Virus record (IMG/VR): IMGVR_UViG_3300009149_000025
Location: 1-64,000 of that record
Source of the DNA: a virus
Length of the DNA stretch: 64,000 nt
Direction: 5' to 3' (one strand)
Shown: positions 9,263 to 62,279 of the stretch, in pieces
Layout: each line of letters begins with the position of its first letter
Numbering within the stretch: the first letter of the stretch is position 1
Translations under genes and position numbers: made by a program
The notes under the pieces: generated by a model
Told to the model about the DNA's origin: nothing
What the model saw: the letters and a program-made list of their open reading frames with translations, nothing else
The model's database searches: none

Positions 9263-9766
9263 ATGAAAAATTTTAAAGAATTCATGAACGAAAGTAATAT
9301 AGACAAAGATACATTAGTTATTTCTGGATTTCCAGGTATAGGTAAGTCACATTTCTATAGAAAGAATGAAAAAGAAGGTAAAATTGTATTAGATTCTGAT
9401 TCTAGTAAATTTAGTTGGATAAAAGATGAAAATGGTAATAACACTAAGGAAAGAGATCCAAATTTTCCTAATAATTATATTAAACACATAAAAGAAAATA
9501 TAGGAAAAGCTGATATAATTTTAGTATCATCACATAAAATTGTTAGAGATGTTCTTGTAGAAAACAATATAACATTCACACTTGTTTATCCATCAAGAGA
9601 AATAAAAGAAGAATATTTACAACGATATAAAGATAGAGGTAGTGATGGTCCTTTTGTGGAATTGTTAAATAATAATTGGGATAATTTTTTAGATGAATTA
9701 GAAGAACAAAAAGGTTGTGATAAAATAGAATTAGAAGAAGGTAAATATCTTAGTGATTATTTATAA
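9263..9766 (+). CDS. P-loop kinase-like protein with capsid-targeting-like leader
   Basis: 167 aa. The N-terminus MKNFKEFMNE closely resembles the T4 internal-protein leader (MKTYQEFIAE). A nucleotide-binding P-loop follows at residues ~21-32 (SGFPGIGKSHF), and a downstream VLDSDSSKF could be the Walker B/substrate region. It resembles small nucleoside- or polynucleotide-kinase-like phage proteins. The leader before a kinase fold suggests a protein packaged in the head, but cleavage and packaging are inferences. Confidence 0.6.
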   Translation: MKNFKEFMNESNIDKDTLVISGFPGIGKSHFYRKNEKEGKIVLDSDSSKFSWIKDENGNNTKERDPNFPNNYIKHIKENIGKADIILVSSHKIVRDVLVENNITFTLVYPSREIKEEYLQRYKDRGSDGPFVELLNNNWDNFLDELEEQKGCDKIELEEGKYLSDYL

Positions 9767-9782
9767 ACTCATTATTATATAT

Positions 9783-9792
9783 TTATATATAA
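9783..9792 (+). promoter_or_regulatory. Phage-type promoter candidate
   Basis: TTATATATAA ends 6 nt before the ATG at 9799 of the homing nuclease gene. It matches the recurrent motif. Such a short distance would give an almost leaderless mRNA if it acts as a -10 element. Confidence 0.45.
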
Positions 9793-9798
9793 GTAGTT

Positions 9799-11316
9799 AT
9801 GATTATAGATAATAAATGTAAGATTAAAATCACGAATAGGAATAAAAAATATTTTAAATCTAAAGGATATTTATGTGATAATGAATACGAAAATGTAAAT
9901 CCAAATGATTTGAGTAATGGGAGTAATATTAAAATTACGGTTAAATGTGATTATTGTGATAATATAAAAAATATTTCTGTAAAAAATTATAATTCTGTAA
10001 AAAGTAAAAATAATGATGAATATTATTGTTCTAAATGTTGGAATAAACGATTAAAAAAAATAATGATAGATAAATATGGAGTAGATATTCCATTAAGAAA
10101 TAAAAAAATACAAGAAAAACAGAAAAATACATTATATAATAATTATGGTGTTTATCATCCATCTGAAAGTAAATTATTGAAAGGTAATTTAAAAAATATA
10201 TTAATTGATAAATATGGTGTAGATAATGTGTCAAAAATTGATACTGTTAAAATAAAAAAAATAAAATCCTTAAAAAAATCTTCTTTATTTAGATTAAAAT
10301 CTAAATATAATGAAATAATAGATTTTGATTACGATACAAAGATATTGAAATGTGTATGTATTAATCATAATTATAATATATCATATGATTTATTTTACAA
10401 TAGAAAGGAATTAAATACTGTAATATGTACAATATGTAATCCTATTAATAAAAATATATCTGGTTTAGAAATCCAATTACAAGATTTTATTAAAGACAAT
10501 TACACTAATATTATATTAAATGATAGACATTTAGGTAAAGAACTTGACATTTATGTTCCTGATTTAAAACTTGCATTTGAATTTAATGGTTTATATTGGC
10601 ACAATGAAATTAATAAAGAAAATAATTATCATTTAAATAAAACTGAATTATGTGAAGAACAAGGAATTCAATTGATTCATATTTATGAAGATGATTGGTT
10701 ATATAAACAAGATATTGTTAAATCTGTGATATTAAATAAATTAGGTAAATCTGTAAATAAGATATATGCCAGAAAAACAGAAATCAGAGAAATAACTGAT
10801 AATAAAATAGTTAGAGAATTTTTAAATAAAAACCATCTTCAAGGATTTATTGGTGGTAAAGTAAAATTAGGTTTATATTATGATAATAAATTGACTAGTT
10901 TAATGACATTCGGAAAAAGAAGGGTTGTAATGGGTAAAAAGGGTTCAGAAGAAGGAGAATATGAGTTATTAAGATTTTGTTCCAAACTAAATACAAATGT
11001 AGTTGGCGGTGCAAATAAATTATTTAAACATTTTGTTAGGAATTTTCAACCAAAAGAAATAACAACATATGCTGATATGTCATGGAGTAATGGTAATTTA
11101 TATGAACAATTAGGGTTTGAATATCAGGGCAAAACAAAACCTAATTATTATTATATAATTGATGGAATTAGACATTATAGATTCAACTACAGAAAAGATA
11201 AATTAATGAAAGAAGGATATTCTAAAGAAAAAACTGAAAAACAAATAATGTTAGATAGAGGAATTTATAGAATATATGATTCTGGTAATCTAAAATTTAT
11301 ATATAATATAATATGA
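9799..11316 (+). CDS. Large free-standing homing endonuclease (Vsr/EDxHD-like)
   Basis: 505 aa. The N-terminal half has zinc-ribbon-like CDYCDN and CSKCW pairs (residues ~50-80) and two repeated DKYGVD modules of the kind used for DNA recognition by phage nucleases. The core from residue ~240 reads GKELDIYVPDLKLAFEF, NGLYWH, matching the PD-(D/E)xK/Vsr-like catalytic arrangement (D..E..H). A C-terminal domain (LQGFIGGKVKLGLYY, TTYADMSWSNGNLYEQLGF) resembles a GNAT-like region often fused to this nuclease type. Its TGA overlaps the next ATG. It is likely a mobile gene inserted between phage genes. Confidence 0.7.
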   Translation: MIIDNKCKIKITNRNKKYFKSKGYLCDNEYENVNPNDLSNGSNIKITVKCDYCDNIKNISVKNYNSVKSKNNDEYYCSKCWNKRLKKIMIDKYGVDIPLRNKKIQEKQKNTLYNNYGVYHPSESKLLKGNLKNILIDKYGVDNVSKIDTVKIKKIKSLKKSSLFRLKSKYNEIIDFDYDTKILKCVCINHNYNISYDLFYNRKELNTVICTICNPINKNISGLEIQLQDFIKDNYTNIILNDRHLGKELDIYVPDLKLAFEFNGLYWHNEINKENNYHLNKTELCEEQGIQLIHIYEDDWLYKQDIVKSVILNKLGKSVNKIYARKTEIREITDNKIVREFLNKNHLQGFIGGKVKLGLYYDNKLTSLMTFGKRRVVMGKKGSEEGEYELLRFCSKLNTNVVGGANKLFKHFVRNFQPKEITTYADMSWSNGNLYEQLGFEYQGKTKPNYYYIIDGIRHYRFNYRKDKLMKEGYSKEKTEKQIMLDRGIYRIYDSGNLKFIYNII

Positions 11317-12272
11317 AAAGAAGTGAAGATTATTTAAATTTTAATAAGCATAAACCTGAAAAGGTAAAGGGAGAATTCTATACAATAAGAAATACTGTCA
11401 ATGAAAAGAATATTCCTTTAAATAAAAGAAAATATAACAGTAGAGGTAATGTAATTAATGAAGCCCAAGATTTAGATGCGTCTTTGATACAAGGATTACC
11501 TGTAAACCAAAGAGTAAAATTTGATCAGGGATTAATGGTTAAAGCTATTCAAAATGGTTTAGTTATAATGATTAATTATAATGGCGATAAAGATAATTGG
11601 AAAGGTGGAAGAGAAAGAGTTATATATCCAATGGTTATTGGTGTTAATAGAAATACTGGTAATATGTTAATTAGAGGTTGGCATTTAACAGGTTGGTCTG
11701 TATCTAAAAAGAGAAATGTTGCAAAAGAATGGAGATTGTTTAAAGCTAAAAATATTAAATCAATGATGTTCACTGGTGACTTTTATAGATTAATACCAAA
11801 GGGATATAAGATGAATGATAGGGTAATGACCGAAAGATTAATTAAGTCTGCAGATTTTAATGAAATTAGAAGAAATCAAGATGCTTTGGTTAAATCAGGT
11901 AAGTTAGAAACTATGCAAAAACAAACAATAGGACAAGAAGAATTAGGTGGGATAGTAAAATTAGATGCAAGAACAACCGATACAATTTTTAATTTAGCAT
12001 TGCCATTTGATAATGAATACACTTCTGATTATGAAAAGAAACCAGAAGATATGAAGATGACTTTCATGAAAAATATAAATAAAAATGAACATGTTGCTAT
12101 TGTAGGTGCTTTAGGTACAGTTAATAGAACAGTTAAATTATATGATGGTAAAGAATTCATTGGAAATTTTAAAGTTAGAAAAAGTGTTAAAGGTAGAGAT
12201 ATAAAAACTACAAGAAATATAGATGGACAAACCGAATTTCCATTGTATACATTTAATGAAGTAATGAAATAA
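11313..12272 (+). CDS. WYL-like domain protein
   Basis: 319 aa. Residues ~85-165 resemble a WYL ligand-sensing domain: IMINYNGD, RERVIYPMVIGVN, a LIRGWHLTGWS strand and EWRLFKAKNIKSM. WYL domains usually bind nucleic acid or nucleotides and regulate bacterial or phage factors; here there is no helix-turn-helix in front. The ~60-residue N-terminal region holds NVINEAQ, a possible I-x-E cleavage site of the T4 prohead-protease type. It is coupled by ATGA to the preceding nuclease, suggesting the nuclease inserted upstream of it. The fold assignment is moderate. Confidence 0.5.
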   Translation: MKRSEDYLNFNKHKPEKVKGEFYTIRNTVNEKNIPLNKRKYNSRGNVINEAQDLDASLIQGLPVNQRVKFDQGLMVKAIQNGLVIMINYNGDKDNWKGGRERVIYPMVIGVNRNTGNMLIRGWHLTGWSVSKKRNVAKEWRLFKAKNIKSMMFTGDFYRLIPKGYKMNDRVMTERLIKSADFNEIRRNQDALVKSGKLETMQKQTIGQEELGGIVKLDARTTDTIFNLALPFDNEYTSDYEKKPEDMKMTFMKNINKNEHVAIVGALGTVNRTVKLYDGKEFIGNFKVRKSVKGRDIKTTRNIDGQTEFPLYTFNEVMK

Positions 12273-12282
12273 AATAATTATT

Positions 12283-13089
12283 ATGAAAAGGTTTAATAAA
12301 TTTATTAATGAAATTAATTTTGATGATTTCGAAGACGAATTTGATTTCGAAGACGAATTTGATTTCGAAGAAGAAGAATTTGATAGAGTTTATGGGTATA
12401 CCTGTCAATATAGTAAACGTGATATATTATCATCCAGAGTTACGAATAAAGAAATTAAATATAAAGAATTAAAAACTTTTGATTTAAGTTATGAAAATAT
12501 TCCATTTACAATAGAAATGAACACAAGTGGTTTTGCTGGTTCAGATGCTCCTATTATTTTAGTGAAATTTATAATAGATAGAGCAGTAGTTGATGCATTA
12601 GAAGATGATGAATGTATAGGATTTAATAGTACTTATGGTGGTAATAAAAATATAGATTTGAGAGCAGGTTCATATGTTAAAAAGTATGGAATGCATAAAT
12701 TAATACCTGTTTATAAGAAAGCATATGAATGGGTGTATGATGATGAATTTCCTTTTAAACATATAAAAGAGTCAAGACAAAGTGTTAGAGTTTATAGAGA
12801 AGATTGGAAAAAATTTGTAGATATGTTATCTAATGGAAAATGGGGACAAACTAAATTTGGTAAATATGTTAAAAGTAAAAAACCTTTATGGTGTGCTCAT
12901 CACGACTGGAATGAAGTCACATATGATGATTTTGAAAGATATTATCCCAATAAAGATTATATATATGTTTATGGATTTAGTGGATGTTTAATACCTCATT
13001 ATACCAAAAAATATAGACATCATTATGGAAAATATTATGTAGATTTTAAAGACATTTTAAGCCATGATGCTACTTATAAAAAATATTGA
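12283..13089 (+). CDS. Acidic-leader protein, unknown
   Basis: 268 aa starting MKRFNKFINEINFDDF, a T4-capsid-targeting-like leader followed by three repeats of the acidic-aromatic unit DFEDEF. After residue ~40 comes a globular domain with no motif I recognise; it has CAHHDWNEV and YVYGFSGCLIPHY segments near the C-terminus. Similar acidic-aromatic stretches follow the leader in at least six other proteins in this window. A head-packaged role is inferred from the leader only. Confidence 0.55.
   Translation: MKRFNKFINEINFDDFEDEFDFEDEFDFEEEEFDRVYGYTCQYSKRDILSSRVTNKEIKYKELKTFDLSYENIPFTIEMNTSGFAGSDAPIILVKFIIDRAVVDALEDDECIGFNSTYGGNKNIDLRAGSYVKKYGMHKLIPVYKKAYEWVYDDEFPFKHIKESRQSVRVYREDWKKFVDMLSNGKWGQTKFGKYVKSKKPLWCAHHDWNEVTYDDFERYYPNKDYIYVYGFSGCLIPHYTKKYRHHYGKYYVDFKDILSHDATYKKY
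12325..12378 (+). repeat. 18-bp tandem coding repeat
   Basis: gatttcgaagacgaattt occurs twice exactly (12325-12342, 12343-12360) and a third diverged copy follows. It encodes the DFEDEF acidic-aromatic units and suggests expansion by replication slippage. Confidence 0.85.
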
Positions 13090-16781: not shown

Positions 16782-18629
16782 ATGGATTTAAAAAACATTA
16801 CAACATTTAACGAATTCAAAGAATACAAAGAAATAGATATTCTATTGGAAGAAGCATTACCAAGAGATTACGCTTCAAATGCAACTAATTTTTCTACAAG
16901 TTTATTGGGAAGAGGAGTAAACACATTATTTAAGTTTTTAAATAAGGGTAAAAATTATGCTAAATTATATCTACATAATAAAAGATTTAGAAATGAATTG
17001 GCTATGGGTGTATTAAGAACATGGGAAAAGTTAGAACCAAAAATTAAAGATTGTTCAGAAGAACAAGGTGGTGGAGATGGTCAAGGACAAGGAAATTACC
17101 AAGGAGATGGTCAAGGAGATGGTCAAGGGCAAAATTCAAATGCTGTTTGGTTTCATTATAAAGTCAATCCAAATGCGAAAGTTAAAAATAAACAAAACCC
17201 TAATGGTCCACAGGTGATTTCTCCAAATGCGGGATTAATTTTTTTAGTTGAAAAGAAAATTTTAAAAAAAGATGGTAAAGATAAAACTATTTATCAACCA
17301 ACTTATAATATTGGGAGAAGTGGGGGATCGTGGATAGGTGTTGACAATATGACACCGATAACTAATTTGGATATAGTTAAGGCTAATAAAATATTATCAA
17401 AAGTATATGATTTTATAAGTAAAAATGAAGTAAATGAAGGTATAGTACAGGAAGTTAAAAATGGTATTGAATCTTTGAAAGGTTATAACGATTGTCCAGT
17501 TTTCAAAAGAAATAGAGAGTTATTATTAAATAAATTAGAAAGAACACCTGAAGATAGTCCTACAAATAATTTGATAGATTTTTTAGAATCTATAGAAGTA
17601 AATGAAAGTTATCATTTTTATGGTGATGTGTTAAATGAACGTAATGATATACCAAGTTTAAGACATAGTAAACAAACTGGATCTAAAGTAAAAAAAATGA
17701 CAAGGACATCTGGAAGATTCGCCCCAGTTGAAATATTAGGAGATGCTACCAAATTAGATTGGTCTGTATTTGAAGGTGAAAAACCAAATCAACTATGTGA
17801 ATATTTTAGTAATCATGTGTGCATAGAAGGTGAAGGTGGAAAAATAAAACGTATTGAAGGTAAAGACTTAAAAAAAGACGCAACATCTAATGTTAATATT
17901 GATGCTATTATCGCTATACAATATTCTATATTATCAGCAATACAACATACTGATAGTACAGATTCTACAAAAATGTTTGCGCAGAAAGGTGGTGGAATAT
18001 CTGGAAACAATACTACAACAGGATTAGATAGAGTTTGGCATCGTATGGTTAGTAAAACTTTGGCTGAATTTAAATGTTTCTTAAATGTAGAAAATTTAAA
18101 TCCATATGATTTAGCATCTAAAGGTGAAAATAAAGATACTCGTAAAAATGCTGAAGGAATAGGTAAAAAAATAGATGATGATTTAAAGGGTGCTGAACAT
18201 AAAAAATTAGTTTACGATGCTATACTTAATTCAAAAGCAAAATCTGCACCATTTAAAGATGTACAAGCTGTTTTAGTAGAAAGAAAAATGGATGAAGATA
18301 AATATAGATTCTATTACTTTACACATATAGAAAAAGAAGATGAAGACATAGTGGTTAATAAAATCTATAGATTGAATGGAAAAATAGAAACAGTAACTCA
18401 AATAACTAAAGCAGTTGATCAAAATAAAAAGGTTTATTTCCCAGATGGTGCAAGTAATAGAGATAGAACATATAAAGGATTATCTGAAAGAATGTATCCT
18501 GCTTTAGAAAAATTGATAGATGCTACTGACGATACAGGATATAATAATAATTTCAACATATCTCATGTATATCATATTTTTGATAAAACTGTAGCATATG
18601 ATATAGGAAAAATGAAAGTTAATATTTAA
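16782..18629 (+). CDS. Large head-associated candidate protein with leader
   Basis: 615 aa. The N-terminus (TTFNEFKEYKEIDILLEEAL) combines an F-N-E-F-K leader with an L-L-E-E-A site that fits L-x-E prohead-protease cleavage. A Gly/Gln-rich linker (GDGQGQGNYQGDGQGDGQGQ) lies at ~92-115. The remainder is a long globular region with no recognised catalytic motif; further L-N-E and V-N-E sites occur near residues 273-285. It precedes the small coiled-coil gene and the tape measure. An internal head or tail-assembly protein is inferred. Confidence 0.5.
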   Translation: MDLKNITTFNEFKEYKEIDILLEEALPRDYASNATNFSTSLLGRGVNTLFKFLNKGKNYAKLYLHNKRFRNELAMGVLRTWEKLEPKIKDCSEEQGGGDGQGQGNYQGDGQGDGQGQNSNAVWFHYKVNPNAKVKNKQNPNGPQVISPNAGLIFLVEKKILKKDGKDKTIYQPTYNIGRSGGSWIGVDNMTPITNLDIVKANKILSKVYDFISKNEVNEGIVQEVKNGIESLKGYNDCPVFKRNRELLLNKLERTPEDSPTNNLIDFLESIEVNESYHFYGDVLNERNDIPSLRHSKQTGSKVKKMTRTSGRFAPVEILGDATKLDWSVFEGEKPNQLCEYFSNHVCIEGEGGKIKRIEGKDLKKDATSNVNIDAIIAIQYSILSAIQHTDSTDSTKMFAQKGGGISGNNTTTGLDRVWHRMVSKTLAEFKCFLNVENLNPYDLASKGENKDTRKNAEGIGKKIDDDLKGAEHKKLVYDAILNSKAKSAPFKDVQAVLVERKMDEDKYRFYYFTHIEKEDEDIVVNKIYRLNGKIETVTQITKAVDQNKKVYFPDGASNRDRTYKGLSERMYPALEKLIDATDDTGYNNNFNISHVYHIFDKTVAYDIGKMKVNI

Positions 18630-18647: not shown

Positions 18648-18842
18648 ATGGTTTTAAGATTTAAAGAATTCCTAAATGAACAAGAAGATAAATCTAAAGA
18701 AGAAATTCAAAAATTAGATAAAGATGTTAATGATACAACTATTGACCTGAAGAAAAAACAGATAGAAATCAACAATAGAAAAAAGGAATTACAAAAGAAA
18801 GAAGAAGAATTCCTAAAGAAAAAGGAATCTGAAACTAAGTAA
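18648..18842 (+). CDS. Small coiled-coil protein with capsid-targeting-like leader
   Basis: 64 aa. MVLRFKEFLNEQED is nearly the T4 MKTYQEFIAE pattern, followed by ~50 residues of unbroken charged heptads (KKKQIEINNRKKELQKKEEE). The form is that of a small scaffold-core or internal head protein. It lies 18 nt after the 615-aa gene and 62 nt before the tape measure. Confidence 0.55.
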   Translation: MVLRFKEFLNEQEDKSKEEIQKLDKDVNDTTIDLKKKQIEINNRKKELQKKEEEFLKKKESETK

Positions 18843-27829: not shown

Positions 27830-28351
27830 TTATTTGATATCGTTTATAAATTGTTGAACCTTTTCATTGAGTTCTTCTAATCCATTGTTATTATCAATAG
27901 TATATTGATATTCAAAATTGTTAACATTTTTATCAGAAAAATTATCTGGGTGTATTTCGACATCTTTATTTACAATTAATGTGATACAATTATCACCATA
28001 TATTTTTTGGATTTTTGCAATTTCTTCTGGTTCTCTTATATGTACAAAATAAACATTGTTTTTGATATTTTTACCTTTTTCTATACAATATTTAGTATCA
28101 ATATCTATTCTATTTAAAATATCATTAGTTGGTCCATCGTTAAATTCTGACCAAGATCTTTTAACATCAGATAGAAATTTTCTTGATTTTTCATCTTTTT
28201 TACCATTCCAACCGAAACAAAGCTCGGCAACGTTTTTTACTCTATCTACAGATGAATAATTTTTAACTCTTAATCCACTTATATCTTTAAATATTTTTAC
28301 AAATCGATCTTTTCCAACACCTGCGCCTCCGTTTACGACTATTACTCTCAT
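27830..28351 (-). CDS. P-loop NMP-kinase-like protein
   Basis: 173 aa with the P-loop GGAGVGKDRF at residues 8-17, a hydrophobic YFVHIREPEEI strand-helix that fits the NMP-kinase LID/Arg region, and a C-terminal helix. The layout suggests a deoxynucleoside-monophosphate kinase of the phage type or a related P-loop kinase. It is in the same leftward run as the SLOG gene. Confidence 0.6.
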   Translation of the reverse strand: MRVIVVNGGAGVGKDRFVKIFKDISGLRVKNYSSVDRVKNVAELCFGWNGKKDEKSRKFLSDVKRSWSEFNDGPTNDILNRIDIDTKYCIEKGKNIKNNVYFVHIREPEEIAKIQKIYGDNCITLIVNKDVEIHPDNFSDKNVNNFEYQYTIDNNNGLEELNEKVQQFINDIK

Positions 28352-28361
28352 ATTCTTTTGA

Positions 28362-29147
28362 TTATTTTATTTTTTTATAACTCCAATAAAAACCACCAGA
28401 TGACTTTGTGGTTTGTCTAGCACAATTTCCAATTGCAATATTATTTAAACTCAATTTTCTACTTGCTTCAGAACAGCTTTTCCATTCTTTAATTAATTTA
28501 AAACTTTTTGTATATTGATAAACTTTTTTAGAATTTATATCATGTCCTTTACTAAAAGAAGTTTTATTGGGTTTTTTGATTTTATCATTAGCCCATTTTA
28601 TATGTTCTAATAATTCATCACTTGACATATTAGTATATTCTTCATAATATAACCATATATAACCTTTACAAGTTTTTCTGGATTTATTAAGAGTTCCTCC
28701 AAGATTACCACCATTTAAATCAAAATACAAGTTAGCATCTTTGATAGATGGAAAAATTTTAAATATATTACCATTTGTTTTTAATGATATAACTTTTTTA
28801 TTACCATCCCCTTTTTTAAATGAAGTTTGATTACCAAATGTTAAACCATATCCTCCTTCGGTATGATTAACTAATTTACAACCTTTATCTGTGTAATATT
28901 TAATCCAGTATTTTTCTCTTTCTTTCCAATTATCGTTGTTAGTTTCTTCTATCATTTCCATAATTGGTTTCAATCCATCTTTTATCAATTTGTTAATCCA
29001 ATTTCTTTTGTGGGTGTTTTTATCCCTACATTTATTTATATGATTTTTAAATCTTTGTTTTAAATTTCTAGATTTCCCGACATACCTTATCTTGTTATTG
29101 ATTGGGTTTTTTAAAACGTAAATAAAACATTTATTATCCATAATCAT
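28362..29147 (-). CDS. GIY-YIG homing endonuclease with NUMOD modules
   Basis: 261 aa. FIYVLKNPINNKIRYVGKS is a GIY-YIG catalytic core (the YVLK / YVGKS form), with R in LKQRFKNH and E in WKEREKYWI following. After residue ~100 come NUMOD-type recognition segments: NQTSFKKG and TSFSKGHD (NUMOD3-like), and KKVYQYTKSFKLIKEW followed by SCSEASRKLSLN (NUMOD1-like). It is a free-standing mobile endonuclease. It has its own promoter-like element upstream. Confidence 0.85.
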   Translation of the reverse strand: MIMDNKCFIYVLKNPINNKIRYVGKSRNLKQRFKNHINKCRDKNTHKRNWINKLIKDGLKPIMEMIEETNNDNWKEREKYWIKYYTDKGCKLVNHTEGGYGLTFGNQTSFKKGDGNKKVISLKTNGNIFKIFPSIKDANLYFDLNGGNLGGTLNKSRKTCKGYIWLYYEEYTNMSSDELLEHIKWANDKIKKPNKTSFSKGHDINSKKVYQYTKSFKLIKEWKSCSEASRKLSLNNIAIGNCARQTTKSSGGFYWSYKKIK

Positions 29148-29153
29148 TTTTTA

Positions 29154-29170
29154 TATTTATATATAAAAAA
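29154..29170 (-). promoter_or_regulatory. Phage-type promoter candidate
   Basis: Minus-strand TTTTTTATATATAAATA lies 7 nt upstream of the GIY-YIG gene start at 29147. It is the clearest match to the recurrent element. Confidence 0.55.
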
Positions 29171-29182
29171 TGAGCAGTCCCA

Positions 29183-29365
29183 TTAATTATTTTTTTCACA
29201 ACCATATCTAGTTCCTAACCAATTGAAACTTATTTCAATAAATGGTGTTATAAATATGGAATATTGCTTAACTTTATTGCCGTTCATGGTGTTACTACCA
29301 ATACCAATTATATAAGGTATGATCCACCAAAATTTTGTTTTTAATTTACAATTATATTCTTTCAT
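29183..29365 (-). CDS. Small hydrophobic protein, unknown
   Basis: 60 aa with hydrophobic stretches FWWIIPYIIGIG and FITPFIEISF. It could be membrane-associated. It lies 13 nt downstream of the zinc-ribbon gene. Low information content makes this a tentative gene. Confidence 0.4.
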   Translation of the reverse strand: MKEYNCKLKTKFWWIIPYIIGIGSNTMNGNKVKQYSIFITPFIEISFNWLGTRYGCEKNN

Positions 29366-29378
29366 TTTTCTTTTTTAT

Positions 29379-29534
29379 TTATTCATCTTCTTTAACTGAA
29401 TATTCATACCACATTTTTTCGGCAAGGACTCCAATTTTAGAACCACAATCATCACATATCGCAGTTGTTTTAGTTTTAGTTTTAATTTTATCACTATCAC
29501 ATACTGGGCAAATTTTTATATCTTTTATTTCCAT
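29379..29534 (-). CDS. Zinc-ribbon protein, 51 aa
   Basis: The start at 29534 gives MEIKDIKICPVCDSDKIK followed by a second CDDC pair, so C-x2-C-x16-C-x2-C is a classical zinc ribbon. The C-terminal tail is acidic. It lies 7 nt downstream of the IF3 gene, so it is probably co-expressed. It may assist translation or transcription, but this is inference. Confidence 0.7.
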   Translation of the reverse strand: MEIKDIKICPVCDSDKIKTKTKTTAICDDCGSKIGVLAEKMWYEYSVKEDE

Positions 29535-29541
29535 ATTCAAT

Positions 29542-30060
29542 TTATTTTTTAGGGTTAATCGTAACCGACATTCTTTTATTTTCTAATTTTGGCATAGATT
29601 CTATCTTACCATATTCTTTTAATGCGTCTACAAAACGAAGAATAAGTAATTCACCTTGATCTGCAAATTGTATTTCTCTTCCATGAAACCACACAGTAGT
29701 TTTCACTTTATCGCCTTTTTCTAAAAAATTAATAGCGTGTTTCAATTTGAAATTAAAATCATGATCACCCGTATTATAAGTAAAACGAATTTCTTTTACT
29801 TTAGTTTTCTTTTGACTTTTCTTATTTTCTCTTTCCTTTTGTTTCTTTTCATAAATGAATTTTTGAAATTCAATTATTTTACAAACAGGTGGATTTGCAT
29901 TTGGTACAATTTCCACGAGGTCTAATTTCATATCAGTGGCAATTTTCAAAGCTTCTGATATGTCAACAATTTGACTTTCGATATCTTTACCAGTTATTCT
30001 AACTTTTGGTGATTTGATTTTTTCATTGACTCTGAAAAAATTCTTATTTGTTTTTATCAT
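29542..30060 (-). CDS. infC: Translation initiation factor IF-3
   Basis: 172 aa, full bacterial length. FFRVNEKIKSPKVRI opens the N-domain; LVEIVPNANPPVCKIIEFQK is the family's signature before the lysine-rich linker (YEKKQKERENKKSQKK). The C-domain follows with VKEIRF, HDFNFKLKHAINFLEKGDKV and GREIQF. IF3 splits ribosomes and checks start-codon pairing at the 30S subunit. A complete phage IF3 is uncommon and implies control of host initiation. No obvious AUU-type start is used; the start is ATG. Confidence 0.93.
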   Translation of the reverse strand: MIKTNKNFFRVNEKIKSPKVRITGKDIESQIVDISEALKIATDMKLDLVEIVPNANPPVCKIIEFQKFIYEKKQKERENKKSQKKTKVKEIRFTYNTGDHDFNFKLKHAINFLEKGDKVKTTVWFHGREIQFADQGELLILRFVDALKEYGKIESMPKLENKRMSVTINPKK

Positions 30061-38306: not shown

Positions 38307-38588
38307 CTAGTTCTTCTTAATTTGTTCTTTAAATAATCTATATTGTTCTTTGAACCAGGGATGTTCTAATTCTTCATCCCAAGATGTAAATGTTAAATTA
38401 ACTCCACGATCATCATCATCATGTGAATAATAATCAGTTAATACTATAACAGCACAACCACCATCTTCTACACTTAATTCATCATCTGGATCAATCATAT
38501 CATTGAATTTATTAAAAATATCTTGTTTTGTTGGTTCTTCATTGTCCCAATCGTCATCATAACCTTCATTAAATTTTCTTATTTTCAT
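38307..38588 (-). CDS. Small acidic protein with leader-like N-terminus
   Basis: 93 aa beginning MKIRKFNEGYDDDWDNE, a short form of the K-x-F-N-E leader followed by acidic-aromatic residues. Then DGGCAVIVLTDYYS and a C-terminal helix. It ends 8 nt upstream... of the position where terminase reads out, on the same strand, so it is translated from the same mRNA after terminase. Unknown function. Confidence 0.45.
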   Translation of the reverse strand: MKIRKFNEGYDDDWDNEEPTKQDIFNKFNDMIDPDDELSVEDGGCAVIVLTDYYSHDDDDRGVNLTFTSWDEELEHPWFKEQYRLFKEQIKKN

Positions 38589-38595
38589 TTTCTTA

Positions 38596-40794
38596 TTATT
38601 GTTTTTTGTACCAATTATCTATATTTTTTATACCTAAGTTATAAGTTCTACTATTAGATAATTTTAAATTTCCATCATCATCAATTTTAGCTCCTTTGTT
38701 ATAAATTCTTTTGTAAGAATCACTTAATATGCTTATTGTTCCATTATCTCTTTTATCTGAATAATCAAAAATTAATGGTTTATAATCATCTGGTAATCCA
38801 TTTTCGATATAGTCTTCAATCGATTCTTTGTAATGTGGGTGTCCAAATACCGATGTTAGGTTTACTAAGCTCATCACCATATCATCATGTCCTGATTGTG
38901 ATTTATATGTTACATCCCCAGATGGTGTTTCTTTTTTGGCAAATGATTTTAATTCTATTATATTGGAATCATTACTAAGAGATAAATTATCTTTTATCAT
39001 ATTATCTTGAAACTCTTTTATGTTATATTTTTTATCTCTACCTATTAATAGTCCTTTTTTAACTATTTTATCTTTTTGATTGTGTTTAAATCTCAAGAAA
39101 ACATAATCACCATAATCGTTTTCGCCTTCAAAAACATATGGCATAGATTGGAAAAGTAGATTTCCTAAATTTTTATTCATTTCAACTACACATTTAACTT
39201 TTTCAGGATCAAAGAATTCAAATACCAACATGTAAAGAATATGGGCAAGTTCACTTATTTTATAAATATTTGATCTCCATAAACCTATTTGTTCCAATTT
39301 AAAGAAATCGTAAAGATTGTGTATGGATTCTTTGTTATTTTCAATCCATTCTTTATCTTTTGGTAATAATCTAAATATATTTATAACACTATAATCTAAT
39401 CCTAATCCTTCTGCTAAATCTATACCAATAAAGATATGATAATTTTTTTGATTACCCATTTCAAATATTTCTGGACTATCGTTTACAAAATGTAAATTGT
39501 TATAAGGGATTGGTAATTTTCTGCTAAAATTATCGATTTCGATATGTTCATATTTTTTAATATTTTTAGTCATTTGTTGGAATTTAACAGTGTCAAATAG
39601 TGTTTTATCGTCTGTTAAAAATTCTAATCCAAATTCCTGTTTGAAGAAACTTTCACCACCAATAAGTTTTGTTTGTTCTTCTTCCCATGTGCTGATTTTA
39701 CACAATTCTGCTAATGGAATTTTTTTACCATCATTCATAGGAATCATAAGTTTTCTAATATCGGTAACTCCTGCTTTTGGATATGGTATAGTTTCTTTTT
39801 CGTCTTTATAAAATTTGATGAATATTGTAACATCACTATTTACAGTTTCTTCATATAATTTATACCCTAAAGATTTTAAATAATTTTTAATAAATGTTCC
39901 TGTTATTCCATATTGTGAATATTTTCTAATTTTGGTTTTATTTAATAATATTTTAGTATCTCTTCGTCCATTTTTTTCATACCAATATACTCTCATAGGT
40001 TTATATCCATTGTTATCATCATCATCTTCTGGTTTTTCGGCACCTGTTATTAATTCCCAAAATAAGTTAAATCCATCAGGTGTTGATGATATAATAATTT
40101 TAGAATCGTTAATGGACGACACAACAGGAACAACTTCAGCATAATATTTCCTTATTATTGTATCAGGTACTTTGGCAAATTCATCAAGATATAGTAAATC
40201 AATTGTAAAACCGATAGCTGGTTCAGCTGTTCTTGCTTCTGTTTGAATTCTTGAACCATTTTCAAGTGCAATTGCACTTTCATTCCAGTTCGTAACTCCC
40301 TCTTTTAAGAAAAATGGTAAAAGCTTGTAAATCCCTTTTATTTTGTTTATAATTTCCTTTGTGGTTTTAGATTTATTTGCAACAATCATTACACCCTTAT
40401 TACTATGAAATAAAACAAACCATAAAATATAGATGGCTGCCGATACAGTTTTACCAGTTTGACGACTTGCCATTAAAATGGAATATCTATTATCGTTAAA
40501 TAATTTTATTATTTCTTTTTGATATCTTCTTAATTTTATTTCACCAATTGTACCATCTTCTCTTTTAATTTTACAATATTTTTGGGCGAAATAAAAAACA
40601 CTTAATTTACATTTAATATATTCTTCTCTTTCAGCCTTAGTCATAGCAAATGAAATTCCACCTTTTCTAACTCCCCTATTTCTACTGTGCCATAGAATTT
40701 CGGTTCTTTTTAATTTAAGAGCATATTTTTCTTTCTGTTGGATTTCATCTACCTTTTTGGTAGTCATTACATTACTTTCTTGGTTATCAGCCAT
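38596..40794 (-). CDS. Terminase large subunit (T4 gp17-like)
   Basis: 732 aa. ATPase: Walker A MASRQTGKTVSAA (~108-120), Walker B IDLLYLDEFAK (~198-208) with catalytic Glu, and ISSTPDGFN coupling motif. Nuclease: FIGIDLAEGLGLDYSVINIF (~455) with the first Asp, and SGHDDMVMSLVNL near the C-terminus with the last acidic residues. It packages DNA into the prohead and cuts it. Length is larger than T4 gp17 (610 aa). Its ATG overlaps the stop of the receiver gene by 1 nt. Confidence 0.93.
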   Translation of the reverse strand: MADNQESNVMTTKKVDEIQQKEKYALKLKRTEILWHSRNRGVRKGGISFAMTKAEREEYIKCKLSVFYFAQKYCKIKREDGTIGEIKLRRYQKEIIKLFNDNRYSILMASRQTGKTVSAAIYILWFVLFHSNKGVMIVANKSKTTKEIINKIKGIYKLLPFFLKEGVTNWNESAIALENGSRIQTEARTAEPAIGFTIDLLYLDEFAKVPDTIIRKYYAEVVPVVSSINDSKIIISSTPDGFNLFWELITGAEKPEDDDDNNGYKPMRVYWYEKNGRRDTKILLNKTKIRKYSQYGITGTFIKNYLKSLGYKLYEETVNSDVTIFIKFYKDEKETIPYPKAGVTDIRKLMIPMNDGKKIPLAELCKISTWEEEQTKLIGGESFFKQEFGLEFLTDDKTLFDTVKFQQMTKNIKKYEHIEIDNFSRKLPIPYNNLHFVNDSPEIFEMGNQKNYHIFIGIDLAEGLGLDYSVINIFRLLPKDKEWIENNKESIHNLYDFFKLEQIGLWRSNIYKISELAHILYMLVFEFFDPEKVKCVVEMNKNLGNLLFQSMPYVFEGENDYGDYVFLRFKHNQKDKIVKKGLLIGRDKKYNIKEFQDNMIKDNLSLSNDSNIIELKSFAKKETPSGDVTYKSQSGHDDMVMSLVNLTSVFGHPHYKESIEDYIENGLPDDYKPLIFDYSDKRDNGTISILSDSYKRIYNKGAKIDDDGNLKLSNSRTYNLGIKNIDNWYKKQ

Positions 40795-42634: not shown

Positions 42635-43300
42635 TTAAGATACAATAGTAATAGTTATACCATTTTCTTTTAAGATAACCTTTATATCATCATTAGATAG
42701 TATGTCTTTAAATACTTCATCTTTATTTTCAATGTTTTTCAGTATCCAATTTTGTCCATTACTAACATAGATATATTTTTTATCGCCTTTAACAAGTTCA
42801 ATTGTTTTTGAACTTAGTTTTTCATAGAAATTGCTAAAATTACCGTTTATTTTATAGATTTTAATTTTATCCCTATTCCATTCACCATTTATATCTTTTG
42901 TTTGGAATATAACATATAAAGGATCATCCAATTTTTCTAACTTATCCATTTTTCTATTTTCTCTCTTATGAATTAATAAATATTTAATATCATCAATTAT
43001 GTAAGTATCATAATCTTTAGTATTTTGTAATTCACTTATGAATAGTTCTTTCTTTGATAAATTATCATTGAAATCTGGATTGTCTCTTAATTGTTCTAAT
43101 GTGTAATTGTCATCATATTTTTTTATATCAAAATTGAAAGGTTCTCCTACAAAATCAACTGGTTCTGCATTTACTGTATTCATTAACATATCAGAATCAA
43201 CAACAATACTTTCGAGTATTTCTGCATCAGCTACTAATGGTATGTTTTCAATTTCTTCTAAGAAATTTTCAAATAAAAATATATTGTAATTTTTTAACAT
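42635..43300 (-). CDS. Leader-bearing protein, unknown
   Basis: 221 aa, MLKNYNIFLFENFLEEIENI at the N-terminus, with L-F-E-N-F and L-E-E sites like the leader plus protease-site pattern. The body is alpha/beta with DYDTYIIDDIKYLLIHKREN and KYIYVSNGQNWILKN. No recognised motif. Confidence 0.45.
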   Translation of the reverse strand: MLKNYNIFLFENFLEEIENIPLVADAEILESIVVDSDMLMNTVNAEPVDFVGEPFNFDIKKYDDNYTLEQLRDNPDFNDNLSKKELFISELQNTKDYDTYIIDDIKYLLIHKRENRKMDKLEKLDDPLYVIFQTKDINGEWNRDKIKIYKINGNFSNFYEKLSSKTIELVKGDKKYIYVSNGQNWILKNIENKDEVFKDILSNDDIKVILKENGITITIVS

Positions 43301-43314: not shown

Positions 43315-43746
43315 TTATAGATTATTTATAATATTATCATGATCTCTATCACGGATAAAATTTTTCTTTTTTTTATAAAGTTTTTTAATCATTTTTAATA
43401 TTTTTGATGAATATGGTATTTTCGGTGTAATGATTTCATTGTCATCAACAACATCATCCCATTCTTCATCCTCTAAATCTTCATTGTCTTTTATTAAAAT
43501 TTTAACATTTGTGTATCCGTGTCCCATTGTTATATTATCACTCATTGTTACTATATATAAATATAAATCATCATTATCTATTTTGAAATCCCATGTATGG
43601 TTTGGGTTGTGATGCACGTTATAATCTATATTATCACTTTCGTAAATATCTGTCAGTTTTTTATGTATTAAATCTATAACTTTATTAGTTTTCTTACTAT
43701 TAAATATTCTAATACCCCATTCTTCATATAATTTTAAATGTTTCAT
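43315..43746 (-). CDS. MKHLKLYEE-leader protein 1
   Basis: 143 aa starting MKHLKLYEEWGIRIFNSKKT. The first nine residues are identical to four other proteins in this window. The body has a DIYESDNIDYNVHHNPNHTW segment, strands and an acidic stretch (EDLEDEEWDDVVDDNE), ending in a basic helix. Unknown function. Part of a leftward group. Confidence 0.5.
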   Translation of the reverse strand: MKHLKLYEEWGIRIFNSKKTNKVIDLIHKKLTDIYESDNIDYNVHHNPNHTWDFKIDNDDLYLYIVTMSDNITMGHGYTNVKILIKDNEDLEDEEWDDVVDDNEIITPKIPYSSKILKMIKKLYKKKKNFIRDRDHDNIINNL

Positions 43747-43776: not shown

Positions 43777-44112
43777 TTATAATACTTTTCTAATTCCTTT
43801 ACTGTGTTCTCCATGTATAACACAGACATCAATTGGTAATATTATTTCTTTATTATCATGATCTTTAATAACAGCAAACATCATTCCTGATTTACTTCTT
43901 GATCCAATCATTTTTTGTATTTTGAATTTATAACCGATTAATTTATATAATTGTATTTTTCTATTTGGATCTGTTATATTGTACATATAATCCACTAAAT
44001 TTGGTTTAATAACTATAGTATCACCTTTTTTAAATGGTATGTATTTTTCTTCTTCATCAAAGTCATCTTCATCCCATTCATCGAAATTTTCATATAATTT
44101 TAAATGTTTCAT
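43777..44112 (-). CDS. MKHLKLYEN-leader protein 2
   Basis: 111 aa. MKHLKLYENFDEWDEDDFDE carries leader plus acidic-aromatic motif, then a small beta-barrel-like domain beginning FKKGDTIVIKPN. Such leader-plus-barrel architecture is repeated at 13554-14807. A phage-type promoter element abuts the start. Confidence 0.5.
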   Translation of the reverse strand: MKHLKLYENFDEWDEDDFDEEEKYIPFKKGDTIVIKPNLVDYMYNITDPNRKIQLYKLIGYKFKIQKMIGSRSKSGMMFAVIKDHDNKEIILPIDVCVIHGEHSKGIRKVL

Positions 44113-45047: not shown

Positions 45048-45419
45048 TTATTTACTATTTACAAATTCATCTCCATTAATTATTTCATACCCGTCACTAT
45101 TTAATTCCTTGAATCCGTTGACACGATCTACACTATATTGATTATCTGACCATATTATAACTGAGTCACCACCACCATCTAATAAATCATATCCATCGTT
45201 ATCTAATAAATCGGTAAATTTATGGAGATTATTTAATCTTAAAAATTTAATATAATAAATTTTACCTGTTACATATCCACCACCAGGTTTATTTATATCA
45301 TCAATGTATTCAGTAATATAATCTGTATATATTTTTCTATTTATAGTTTCATCTTCTTCTTCAAAGTCGAAGTCATCGTCATTAAAATCGAATTCTTCAT
45401 ATAGTTTTAAGTGTTTCAT
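45048..45419 (-). CDS. MKHLKLYEE-leader protein 3
   Basis: 123 aa. The first 24 residues (MKHLKLYEEFDFNDDDFDFE and more) are almost identical to the next gene upstream, while the bodies differ, so only the leader was duplicated or conserved. The body holds YIDDINKPGGGYVTGKI and LLDGGGDSVIIW. Unknown function. Confidence 0.5.
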   Translation of the reverse strand: MKHLKLYEEFDFNDDDFDFEEEDETINRKIYTDYITEYIDDINKPGGGYVTGKIYYIKFLRLNNLHKFTDLLDNDGYDLLDGGGDSVIIWSDNQYSVDRVNGFKELNSDGYEIINGDEFVNSK

Positions 45420-45421: not shown

Positions 45422-45763
45422 TTATTTTATTATATCCATATTCATAAATTCATCATATTTAATATTACTATTATGATTTTTTCCAAATCCTCTTGTCCAA
45501 GATGTGTGTGTCCATGAAGGTAAAAAACAATTCCATTTTTCTCCATCATAATTAGTAGAATTTTCATCATTTAAAATATCACTCTCACCAAGAATTCTAA
45601 ACCCTAATCCTTTTAATTTATTAACAATATCAATAGCTTCTTCATTTGTATTGAAAAAGATTATTCGTTTTAACAATTCATCTTTAGTTAAAGTATCTTT
45701 TTCTTCAAAATCAAAATCATCATCATTAAAGTCGAATTCTTCGTATAGTTTTAAGTGTTTCAT
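45422..45763 (-). CDS. MKHLKLYEE-leader protein 4
   Basis: 113 aa from the ATG at 45763; the upstream in-frame ATG at 45787 would place a promoter element inside the gene. It starts MKHLKLYEEFDFNDDDFDFE like its neighbour. The rest is a small alpha/beta domain with IDIVNKLKGLGFRILG and a Trp-rich loop (WNCFLPSWTHTSW). Unknown function. Confidence 0.5.
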   Translation of the reverse strand: MKHLKLYEEFDFNDDDFDFEEKDTLTKDELLKRIIFFNTNEEAIDIVNKLKGLGFRILGESDILNDENSTNYDGEKWNCFLPSWTHTSWTRGFGKNHNSNIKYDEFMNMDIIK

Positions 45764-45780: not shown

Positions 45781-45819
45781 TTTTCATTTTTATTTTAATA
45801 TATTTTAAAAAATTGAATT

Positions 45820-46639: not shown

Positions 46640-46933
46640 TTGATGTTATTAGATTATAAAAAATTCAAAGAAAAAAGTATATTGGTTGAAAGTGTTATTG
46701 AAGATGTTGGTGAAGATAATATTGATAATTTAATAGATGATGCATATAAACATTTTAAAGAAATTCAAAAACCAGTTAATACTTTGAATATAATAAATTA
46801 TGTAGAACAAAGTATAGGTAAAGAGTTAGATGATGAAGATTATTACGATCTTTATTATAAGATAACGGGTGAAGAGTATGATGGGGATGAGATTGATGAT
46901 CTAGATGATGAAGAAAAATATATTATAAAATAA
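46640..46933 (+). CDS. Small acidic protein with leader-like N-terminus
   Basis: 97 aa, starting with TTG (or ATG 46643). MLLDYKKFKEKSILVESVIE has K-K-F-K-E then L-V-E, compatible with the leader/protease site. The rest is acidic and helical, ending DDLDDEEKYIIK. First gene of a three-gene rightward unit with the UVR-like and Nudix genes. Confidence 0.45.
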   Translation: MMLLDYKKFKEKSILVESVIEDVGEDNIDNLIDDAYKHFKEIQKPVNTLNIINYVEQSIGKELDDEDYYDLYYKITGEEYDGDEIDDLDDEEKYIIK

Positions 46934-47648: not shown

Positions 47649-48134
47649 TTAAAATGGTAAGTTTTCTTCATCGTCAAAGTCATCATCATCCATATCTTCT
47701 TCTTGTGATATATTGTCCAATTCATCTTTGTATCCTTTTTGAGAATCTAGATATACAATATACAAGTCTTCTGGTATGTGGAATACAATTTCATCACCTT
47801 CTTCTTTCATAGAAGCTGTTGTTGTGTCATCATCGCTGATTTCTTCCATAAACCATTCTTGAAATGATTCAAAGTCAGTTGGTAAATCTAATTCACCAAT
47901 ATCGTCCCATGAATCAGTTTTTTGATTATATACTATTTCTAATAAATCATCGATTTCTTCATCTTCTGAATCGGTTTCTATTTCACTTTTGAATTCTGTT
48001 TTATCATCATCACCATCAAAAAATACATCTTCTGTATCAATATCCGAATCTGGTTGAATAGTTTCAAATTCGTCTATTTCTATGTTTTCGTTTATAAAGT
48101 CTTTAAAATTTTTAATTTTTTTCATAATTTTCAT
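47649..48134 (-). CDS. Acidic protein with capsid-targeting-like leader
   Basis: 161 aa. KKIKNFKDFINENIEIDEFE opens the protein; F-K-D-F-I-N-E closely follows T4 Y-Q-E-F-I-A-E. Nearly the whole chain is acidic, including a C-terminal DDDDFDDEENLPF. A strongly acidic, leader-bearing protein could be a DNA mimic or internal head component, but this is inferred. Starts at 48134 or at the internal ATG of MKKIKNF. Confidence 0.55.
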   Translation of the reverse strand: MKIMKKIKNFKDFINENIEIDEFETIQPDSDIDTEDVFFDGDDDKTEFKSEIETDSEDEEIDDLLEIVYNQKTDSWDDIGELDLPTDFESFQEWFMEEISDDDTTTASMKEEGDEIVFHIPEDLYIVYLDSQKGYKDELDNISQEEDMDDDDFDDEENLPF

Positions 48135-54838: not shown

Positions 54839-55870
54839 ATGAGTCTTGGTAATTACAGTGATTATATAGTGAAGGAAGCTTTGACTCCTGAACAAATACA
54901 GAAAAAGAAAGAATTAGCCTTATCTTCTCAGATGAGAATGTATTTATCTAAGGGACTATCTGATATCTTAAAAACAATGAGTAGCCCGATTGCTAAGGAT
55001 TTATTATCATTATCATCTCAAGATATTAAATTTGATATATCATATATGGATGTATCTGGTAATGAAGGTATGGTTACATTTATTTCAACAATTAAAGCGT
55101 TGAAGATTAATCCAGATTTAAAAAGTGATAAAATGTCACCTGAAGGAACTGATGTGTGGTCATCTCCACAAAGAGTTCAACCAACTAAAATTGGTAAAAT
55201 AATAGTTAAACTTTTTAAAGGAAAATACACACCATCACAAATTGAACAATTTGGTAATGAATTTAGAGCTAAATGTAGTAAAGATGATAGTAAAATGAAA
55301 GTTGTTTATGGTGAAGATATTAGAAAATATTATAACGAAAATACTTATAGTAGGGAAATATATGGTGGAACTTTAAAAGGTTCATGTATGAGATATAAAG
55401 AAAAACAGGGTTATTTCGATATTTACTGCGATAATAGTCCTGGTAGTGGTTCTTTTTCACATGTTGGGTTATTGATTCTTTTGGATGATGATGAAAAATT
55501 AATTGGTAGAGCATTAGTTTGGTTTAATAGTGTTAGACCTGAACCAGGTAGAATTTTTATGGATAGAATTTATTATATGAGGGATTCAGACCAAACAGTA
55601 TTTATTGATTACGCTAAAGAAAGAGGTTGGTTGTATAAACAATCTCAAACTTTCAATAATGCAAATTATATTGATCCAAAAGATGGTAAAAAACATGGTC
55701 TTACATTAACTTTCAGATTAAAAAATAAAGATTATAGAAGATATCCTTTCTTGGACACTTTATTATTTTACACACCAGAAACAGGTAGAATATCATCTAA
55801 ACAAAATAAAAATCCAAAATATAAGTCGTATAGAATACAAAATCAAGATGGTGGTGCGGCAGGTGTCTAA
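54839..55870 (+). CDS. Leader-bearing protein, SCM family paralogue B
   Basis: 343 aa. MSLGNYSDYIVKEALTPEQI shows a Y-I-V-K-E-A site like V/L-x-E cleavage. The C-terminal ~200 residues align with the 32008 gene: VVYGEDIRKYY, GGTLKGSCMRYK, IYCDNS, RALVWF, FMDRIYYMRDSD, YPFLDTLL. Conserved Cys, Arg and Asp suggest an enzyme, but I cannot name the fold. The paralogues are 23 kb apart. It sits just after the fibre genes and ends with a terminator. Confidence 0.55.
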   Translation: MSLGNYSDYIVKEALTPEQIQKKKELALSSQMRMYLSKGLSDILKTMSSPIAKDLLSLSSQDIKFDISYMDVSGNEGMVTFISTIKALKINPDLKSDKMSPEGTDVWSSPQRVQPTKIGKIIVKLFKGKYTPSQIEQFGNEFRAKCSKDDSKMKVVYGEDIRKYYNENTYSREIYGGTLKGSCMRYKEKQGYFDIYCDNSPGSGSFSHVGLLILLDDDEKLIGRALVWFNSVRPEPGRIFMDRIYYMRDSDQTVFIDYAKERGWLYKQSQTFNNANYIDPKDGKKHGLTLTFRLKNKDYRRYPFLDTLLFYTPETGRISSKQNKNPKYKSYRIQNQDGGAAGV

Positions 55871-60872: not shown

Positions 60873-60884
60873 CTTTATATATAC
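60873..60884 (+). promoter_or_regulatory. Phage-type promoter candidate
   Basis: CTTTATATATAC, about 20 nt upstream of the RHH start at 60904. Confidence 0.45.
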
Positions 60885-60903
60885 TATAAAATATAAAGAA
60901 GAT

Positions 60904-61059
60904 ATGAAGAAATCAGATAAAAAGTTGTGTAATTTTTGGCTACCCAATGAAATTTATGAACATTTAAAATTAAATTCAAAAGATAATTATATGTCAATGA
61001 CAGATTATGTTATTCAAATGTTATTAAGAGATAAAAAAAAATTAGATAAAGGTGTATAA
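60904..61059 (+). CDS. Ribbon-helix-helix-like protein, HNH-coupled
   Basis: 51 aa: MKKSDKKLCNFWLPNEIYEH and MSMTDYVIQMLLRDKKK. Short strand, helix and an S-M-T-D-Y-V-I helix are RHH-like, although less clear than the other copies. Its TAA at 61057-61059 overlaps the GTG start of the HNH gene at 61052 by 8 nt, so the two are coupled. Confidence 0.6.
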   Translation: MKKSDKKLCNFWLPNEIYEHLKLNSKDNYMSMTDYVIQMLLRDKKKLDKGV

Positions 61060-61678: not shown

Positions 61679-61697
61679 TAACCTTCTCTTTTTTATT
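61661..61697 (+). terminator. Terminator overlapping the HNH stop
   Basis: AAAAAGAGAA...TTCTCTTTTT stem with the HNH TAA (61676-61678) in the loop region and a following T run. Confidence 0.7.
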
Positions 61698-61712
61698 TGA
61701 ATTTGATAAAAT

Positions 61713-61910
61713 TTATATGATTTCTACATTTGTAGCAATTTTGCCTTTTTTACCATCTGTTAGTTCAAAACTAACTTCATCATTTTCTTTGATTGTGTCT
61801 ACTAAACCTGTGACATGCACAAAGTACTCATCTTCTGTTTCAGATTCTTTAATAAATCCAAATCCTTTTGCATCGTTAAAAAATTTTACGATACCTTTTA
61901 ATTCACTCAT
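61713..61910 (-). CDS. csp: Cold-shock domain protein
   Basis: 65 aa. GIVKFFNDAKGFGFIKE has the RNP1 motif (K-G-F-G-F-I) and EYFVHVTGL the RNP2 motif. It binds single-stranded RNA and DNA and may act as an RNA chaperone. Full length for the family. The leader contains two palindromes at 61934-61963. Confidence 0.92.
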   Translation of the reverse strand: MSELKGIVKFFNDAKGFGFIKESETEDEYFVHVTGLVDTIKENDEVSFELTDGKKGKIATNVEII

Positions 61911-61933
61911 TATTTATTTATTTATTTTTTATA

Positions 61934-61963
61934 CGGAAATATTCCGCACATCTATATATAGAT
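61934..61963 (-). promoter_or_regulatory. Two palindromes in the csp leader
   Basis: CGGAA-ATA-TTCCG (61934-61946) and ATCTATATATAGAT (61950-61963) lie 24-53 nt upstream of the csp start. They may be operator and promoter or a leader structure. Confidence 0.45.
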
Positions 61964-61988
61964 ATGATAATGTTGGAAAAAGTTGTTT

Positions 61989-62279
61989 TTAATTTTTAAA
62001 ATGGTTTTTAAGTAGGGATAATCTCTCTTTTAGAACAAATATCATTTTTTCTTTAGTAACTTCTAAAGTTGGGTGAACTTCTTCATTTTCCCAATAACGA
62101 ATAGCCTTATTTATTAGTTTTAATTCTGATTCATAATTTTCTTTTTCGAAGTTTCTAAACCATGTTTTGTTTGATTTGTATTTAATTCCTTCTGGTATAT
62201 CAAATTCCTCTTCATCAAAATCATCATCGTCCCATTCACCGAAATCTTCAAATTCTTCGTATAGTTTTAAATGTTTCAT
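61989..62279 (-). CDS. MKHLKLYEE-leader protein 5
   Basis: 96 aa. MKHLKLYEEFEDFGEWDDDD is leader plus acidic-aromatic motif, then a short helical body (ESELKLINKAIRYWENEEVH). It lies far (16 kb) from the 43-46 kb group with the same leader, so the tag is not explained by local duplication alone. A phage-type promoter abuts it. Confidence 0.55.
   Translation of the reverse strand: MKHLKLYEEFEDFGEWDDDDFDEEEFDIPEGIKYKSNKTWFRNFEKENYESELKLINKAIRYWENEEVHPTLEVTKEKMIFVLKERLSLLKNHFKN

Follow-up and report, generated by a model that had tools for sequence, protein, structure and literature searches.

Why should a set of otherwise unrelated viral proteins begin with nearly the same ten residues? The question is raised by the window analysed here, bases 1-64000 of a viral contig of 69,824 bases (IMG/VR record IMGVR_UViG_3300009149_000025, also labelled G000), in which an earlier note, made from the letters alone, had remarked on a leader resembling the capsid targeting sequence (CTS) of phage T4 on about fifteen proteins. 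The best reading of the sequence comparisons set out below is that these proteins form a greatly expanded T4-like group of head-packaged, protease-trimmed and probably injected proteins. That the shared N-terminus (the tag) is a CTS of the T4 kind, targeting proteins to the head and being removed there, is very probable; that most of the tagged proteins are also injected is likely.

The T4-type large terminase of the window (38596-40794, minus strand; Terminase_6N, 1.4e-15) is nearest to those of four uncultured huge phages, LR756501 (735 kb, 53% identity), LR745206 (634 kb), LR756502 and LR756504, and on this sequence the window phage is placed near the 634-735-kb huge phages. The first two of these genomes, both used in full, are referred to as W01 and W02, respectively. 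The comparison also takes in the IMG/VR contigs G018 (385 kb used) and G008 (400 of 434 kb used), Tenacibaculum phage PTm1, Sphingomonas phage PAU, T4, and most of crAss001 and 121Q.

Tagged proteins of the window

The tag scoring matrix was trained on W01, W02, G018 and G008 only, the window being excluded, and internal methionines in the scored proteins gave the chance level. At a threshold of 10 bits, 8 of 109 window genes carry the long form of the tag against 0.15 expected from the internal-methionine control (p=4e-12; such estimates of the chance expectation range from ~0.15 to 1 gene). The eight score 13.8-19.4 bits, the next-best window gene 4.7. On the plus strand, they are MKNFKEFMNE (9263-9292, 16.4 bits) on a P-loop kinase-like protein (9263-9766), MKRFNKFINE (12283-12312, 18.3 bits) on ORF 12283-13089, MVLRFKEFLNE (18648-18680, 18.3 bits) on a small coiled-coil protein (18648-18842), MKIMKKFGNYIKE (32008-32046, 13.8 bits) on ORF 32008-33075, which belongs to a family of ~37 paralogues, and MKSYINFVNE (33090-33119, 15.9 bits) on a nucleotidyltransferase-like protein (33090-33827). 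On the minus strand, they are MLQKYKNYLNE (7254-7286, 16.7 bits; ORF 6951-7286), which the earlier note had missed, MLKNYNIFLFE (43268-43300, 14.3 bits; ORF 42635-43300), whose W01 homologue is likewise tagged (MRIKGYNKFVKE), and the window's best, MKIMKKIKNFKDFINE (48087-48134, 19.4 bits; ORF 47649-48134).

A short form, MKHLKLYE followed by E or N, stands on at least five more genes, all on the minus strand: ORFs 43315-43746 (tag 43723-43746), 43777-44112 (44089-44112), 45048-45419 (45396-45419), 45422-45763 (45740-45763) and 61989-62279 (62256-62279). The fourth of these tags, which begins at 45763, is hidden in the mechanical ORF call because of an earlier in-frame ATG, at 45787, that is probably not the start. 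The synonymous sites of the five genes vary and their upstream DNA is unrelated; conservation is therefore at the level of the peptide. Codon use in the tags is close to the genome average, except for a bias to ATA for Ile.

All N-termini quoted in the earlier note are present in the sequence, and those that it had set apart as looser forms proved a mixed group. Two of them, at 32008 and 42635, are among the strong long forms just listed. MKIRKFNE (38565-38588, minus strand; ORF 38307-38588) is a probable short form, picked out by eye and unscored, that resembles MKHIKRFNE of W02. ORF 54839-55870, the second member of the ~37-paralogue family, has a degenerate tag, MSLGNYSDYIVKE (54839-54877, plus strand; NYSDYIVKE, 4.6 bits), in a family that is often fully tagged. 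ORF 16782-18629 has a longer N-terminus (MDLKNITTFNEFKEYKEIDILLEE, 16782-16853, plus strand), its first 79 residues being 42% identical to those of a W01 protein (27867-29933) with a different body; its membership is tentative. The remaining one, LMLLDYKKFKEKSILVE (46640-46690, plus strand; ORF 46640-46933), is weak, did not score and is doubtful. Just past the window on the same contig, a tag-like MLKNYNLFLES (3.3 bits) begins ORF 69451-69780 (minus strand).

Correspondence with the T4 signal

Mutational work on T4 internal protein III (IPIII; MKTYQEFIAE) assigns targeting to positions 4 and 7, and to positions 8 and 10 the processing by gp21, a protease whose cut falls after (L/I)-x-E (PMC9026906). 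The same four positions stand out in the huge-phage tags when each is assessed in sequences chosen on the other three, with internal methionines as controls: Tyr or Phe at position 4 (129/196 vs 54/260 controls, p=1e-22), Phe or Tyr at position 7 (129/199 vs 54/265, p=1e-22), Ile, Leu, Val or Met at position 8 (129/169 vs 54/138, p=3e-11) and Glu at position 10 (129/269 vs 54/311, p=2e-15). With a tighter seven-residue pattern, Glu comes next in 103 of 129 N-termini and in 5 of 57 controls. In an alignment of 70 tagged W01 proteins, the chief common feature is YxxFxNE, and only the Glu column is nearly invariant. In the long form, Ile or Leu occupies P3 in 73 of 88 seeds; the short form also fits the cleavage-site rule that the earlier note had invoked, as L-Y-E (F-N-E in relatives), and in both forms the residue after the tag Glu is preferentially Ser, Ala, Asn or Glu.

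Applied to T4, the huge-phage matrix ranks gp61.1 (MKTFKEFIKE), IPII and IPIII as the top three of 263 ORFs, with the head proteins gp2 and gp24 sixth and eighth. Gp61.1 (NC_000866 18966-19130; L111; MKTFKEFIKEDMVAG), a hypothetical protein of 54 residues, has the highest T4 tag score, above IPII and IPIII, and is possibly an unrecognised internal protein.

The protease, its scaffold repeats and the capsid gene

An S77 (gp21-family) protease is found near a gp23-like capsid gene in W01, W02, W03, PTm1 and PAU. In W01-W03, the S77 scores miss the Pfam cut-off (E=1e-4 to 4e-6), the match being directly upstream of the capsid gene, and the protease opens an ORF of 707-807 residues (called at 764 in W03) that carries, in its scaffold-like part, a series of 14-residue units of the YSEYIAENLDKNI type. 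The YSEYIAE repeat has the tag residues at positions 4, 7, 8 and 10, and the protease-scaffold ORF tops the internal matches to the tag matrix (8 of 79 in W01, binomial p ~1e-9; 5 of 71 in W02, ~1e-5). Seven of 19 IMG/VR contigs that were found by the DNA pattern of the tag have a detectable S77 protease, all seven with 11-14 repeats of the YSEYIAEN type. These repeats no more than hint at an affinity of the tag for the prohead scaffold core. The capsid proteins have MNE/N and INE/N sites (SINE/N and QMNE/N, for example, the stroke marking the presumed cut) at what by eye is the probable end of the propeptide. The window phage presumably also encodes an S77 protease, to judge by its relatives. 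W01 has a second, short S77-like ORF (11386-11787, 181 residues; L013), apart from the fused protease-scaffold.

Scale across the huge phages

Counts of long-form plus short-form tags (with the long-form chance expectation in parentheses) are 8+5 (1.0) in the window, 77+8 (5.2) in W01, 39+25 (6.0) in W02, 27+9 (2.2) in G018, 24+11 (3.8) in G008 and 1+18 in PAU; the tag counts of T4, PTm1 and crAss001 are 3 (0.6), 3 (1.0) and 1 (0.2). All are lower bounds, variants such as NYQQYLIKE (of the 32008/54839 family) having been left out. As a share of genes, the tagged set amounts to 85/1018 in W01, 64/936 in W02, 36/459 in G018 and 35/572 in G008, with ~2-6 expected in each. On these sequence counts the tag is a clade feature of huge phages, and the "about fifteen" of the earlier note, which had proposed a search for further leaders, falls well short of a genome-scale set of at least 35-85 in the relatives. 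Whether a gene was lineage-specific or not made no difference to its being tagged.

The CTS is known from T4, and neither a portable tag, nor the protease, nor the idea itself is new. What is new, as far as we have found, is how widely huge phages use the tag, on at least 35-85 proteins in each genome, together with a fused protease-scaffold that bears the tag motif in tandem; no published description of such tags in huge phages was found in the open-access papers searched.

A detachable module and its cargo

The bodies behind the tag are unrelated, as the earlier note had it: the 223 tagged proteins with a length of 75 residues or more, from five genomes, fall into 181 body families, 48 of which also hold untagged members. 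The kinase at 9263 illustrates the point. Its match to PHROG 4182 (E=4e-59), which with its P-loop makes the name reasonable, is confined to residues 13-166; among the homologues, the window protein and L184, from the same phage, are tagged, L185 has a degenerate tag, L186-L188 begin untagged at the body (TxIISGFPG), and L189 also lacks the tag. Of the homologues of the T4 RNA ligase RnlA, those of W02 and (from an internal methionine) G018 have the tag, and those of W01 and G008, like T4's own, do not. Position 1 of the SMODS-associated NUDIX (Sa_NUDIX) profile aligns at residue 16 of a W02 protein, just past the tag. The nucleotidyltransferase domain of 33090 (also reasonably named, on a weak Pfam match, 0.0018) recurs as residues 317-544 of another tagged W01 protein.

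The proteins at 32008 and 54839, earlier called a Cys-motif family, belong to a group of ~37 uncharacterised members (L025, L043, L066 and others) with the motifs SCM, GRALVW, MDRIY and YPYxDT in common. Some members are tagged and some are not (the W01 homologue of ORF 54839, at 65144, has NYNGFLFE). There are distant homologues in the Cellulophaga phages phi38:1 and Calle; no Pfam or PDB match was found for the family, and the predicted fold of 54839 alone (pLDDT 36) yielded no usable model.

Most tagged bodies are without recognised function. Those that can be named include RNA ligase, SMODS-associated and ordinary NUDIX proteins, ATP-grasp, PPK2 and adenylate kinase, 2H phosphoesterases (which match the anti-CBASS protein Acb1 below threshold), radical SAM enzymes (two of which match viperin models), a DHH-like protein (below cut-off), a class II tRNA-synthetase domain, methyltransferases and cell-wall hydrolases. 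An anti-defence role may reasonably be supposed for part of the tagged set, by analogy with T4, whose internal proteins I-III inhibit Type IV restriction enzymes (PMC12373910). Elsewhere in the window, three small proteins (8822-8983, minus strand; 9082-9258, plus strand; 62554-62763, minus strand) with a KSKYVEYLI(K/Y)KDM-like end look, by eye, like ribbon-helix-helix regulators.

The upstream element

The sequence ATATATA occurs within 60 bases upstream of 33 of 56 structural-gene homologues and 13 of 54 replication-gene homologues (p=2e-4), and of 117 of 233 tagged genes vs 519 of 2242 others (p=3e-17). The element resembles a promoter but is not proven to be one. The T4-type TATAAATA late promoter was not enriched in the relatives, whereas ATATATA was. 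In W02 and G018, structural and tagged genes are preceded by a TAATATATA-type element, a candidate late promoter of the clade. The core replication and structural genes are themselves nearly free of tags (2 of 110, both of them spurious-looking SSB homologues; p=0.008).

How the tag might work, and what else it might be

The T4-type capsid-targeting reading is supported by the match to the T4 mutational determinants, the S77 protease beside the gp23-like capsid gene in all close relatives, the motif repeats in the scaffold part, the gain and loss of tags on homologues and the upstream element in common with structural genes. The course of events may be pictured as follows. The tagged proteins would be made late in infection; the aromatic/aliphatic face of the tag (positions 4, 7 and 8) would dock on the prohead core, as a mimic of the scaffold-like repeat found there; the gp21-type S77 protease would cut the tags after Glu-10, at [I/L/V/M]-x-E and mostly ahead of Ser, Ala, Asn or Glu, and probably the scaffold too, freeing the bodies inside the head; and the bodies would be ejected with the DNA and go to work immediately in the newly infected cell, some of them against defence or nucleotide signalling. 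Packaging, docking, cleavage, injection, the virion content and the targets are all matters that we infer. If this is so, these phages probably carry a large protein toolkit in the particle, injected with the DNA. We lean, somewhat less firmly, towards a general loading system, with a portable tag that copies one repeat of the protease-fused scaffold and stands on at least 35-85 (probably ~100) proteins per genome, a virion that delivers enzymes and anti-defence proteins, and tag gain and loss as the means of selecting cargo.

Several observations weigh against capsid targeting. The gp21-like protease for which the earlier note had suggested a search is missing from the window's own 69.8-kb contig (no S77 gene), which is a fragment. 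Phage 121Q has an S77 protease, yet no such tagged N-termini, and PTm1 has one, yet almost no tags of either form. In some relatives the short form reads F-N-E, which is not a strict (L/I)-x-E site. A reverse matrix made from the scaffold repeats is too specific and picks out tags weakly, and part of the similarity of tag and scaffold could reflect coiled-coil composition. Virion proteomics for any of these tagged phages was not found in the open-access papers searched; the phAPEC6 virion proteome (62 proteins; PMC7247149), approached by way of the near-identical 121Q, neither supports nor refutes the case, because 121Q has no tags of this kind.

Might the tag instead bring structural or core components into the head for assembly, most of them never injected and without an early role? 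Four proteins of the ~37-member family are encoded within ~15 kb of the W01 capsid gene, and gp21 sites are also present on T4 core proteins. However, many of the bodies resemble intracellular enzymes (RNA ligase, NUDIX, 2H phosphoesterase, radical SAM, ATP-grasp, PPK2), and 181 different bodies in five genomes far exceed the needs of assembly, which makes this explanation doubtful, if worth keeping in mind. It is improbable that the N-terminus governs localisation or stability within the infected cell (import into a phage compartment, degradation or membrane recruitment) and has nothing to do with the capsid. A sorting tag would likewise appear as a short N-terminus on many unrelated soluble proteins, but the agreement with the four T4 determinants and the top rank of the T4 internal proteins speak against it, as do the arrayed motif in the protease-scaffold ORF, the cleavage-like capsid sites and the depletion of tags among core genes.

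Shared ancestry or a DNA-level element (duplication remnants, a recombination site, a translation-start element) would suit the clustering of MKHLKLYEE genes at 43-46 kb and the adjacency of tagged genes, above chance in several genomes, but is very improbable in view of the varying synonymous sites, the codon use (the ATA bias apart), the unrelated upstream DNA and the many body families. A common virion-attachment domain, like the anchor shared by tail or head fibres, has a counterpart in 121Q (KM507819 118322-131273), where eight neighbouring proteins have the N-terminus MLPFxRMVKYGN on variable bodies and five of the eight were matched by mass to phAPEC6 virion proteins, but is scarcely credible for a common part of only ~10 residues that ends at a protease-like site on enzymes rather than fibres.

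If the tag is a CTS, it provides a sequence rule for predicting packaged, probably injected proteins of uncultured giant phages, and the scaffold repeat array suggests how the cargo is recruited. T4 internal proteins block restriction enzymes (for two of them this was reportedly shown only in 2025), so that the tagged proteins may also be regarded as candidates for anti-defence and takeover functions.

Comparison with known systems

The ejection proteins of the phiKZ-like phage SPN3US resemble the tagged set in that many head propeptides are cut by a related protease at x-x-E, with Ser favoured at P1', and differ in that those propeptides are mostly 111-254 residues long and without a common short tag (PMC10052503, PMC5694885). 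Propeptides of more than 100 residues and a phiKZ-type protease are the hallmarks of the phiKZ/SPN3US class, whereas the tags have 8-16 residues and the protease matches Pfam S77. The T4 ADP-ribosyltransferase Alt is comparable as an enzyme that is packaged in the head and injected, its propeptide cut off by gp21, but it is a single protein with a divergent propeptide (MELITELFDE).

Sphingomonas phage PAU has at least 18 proteins with the short N-terminus MKTLxxLYE, many of them around its S77 and capsid genes; its genome is smaller (219 kb), it uses the short form only, and its scaffold-like gene is separate and without YSEYIAE repeats. The cluster of many small MKTLxxLYE proteins around the PAU protease and capsid genes is at NC_019521 100248-113735, in a phage whose host has been isolated.

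The nearest precedent is the group of T4 internal proteins IPI, IPII and IPIII, with a short N-terminus that has the same key positions (Y4, F7, I8 and E10) on unrelated bodies and with an S77 protease and a gp23-like capsid, which are found here in the window's relatives. T4-like phages reportedly employ some ten proteins of this sort (PMC12373910). The differences are of number and kind: T4 has a handful of tagged proteins and the huge phages at least 35-85 counted per genome, with two forms of the tag, enzymes among the bodies and, fused to the protease, a scaffold-like part that carries the motif as an array.

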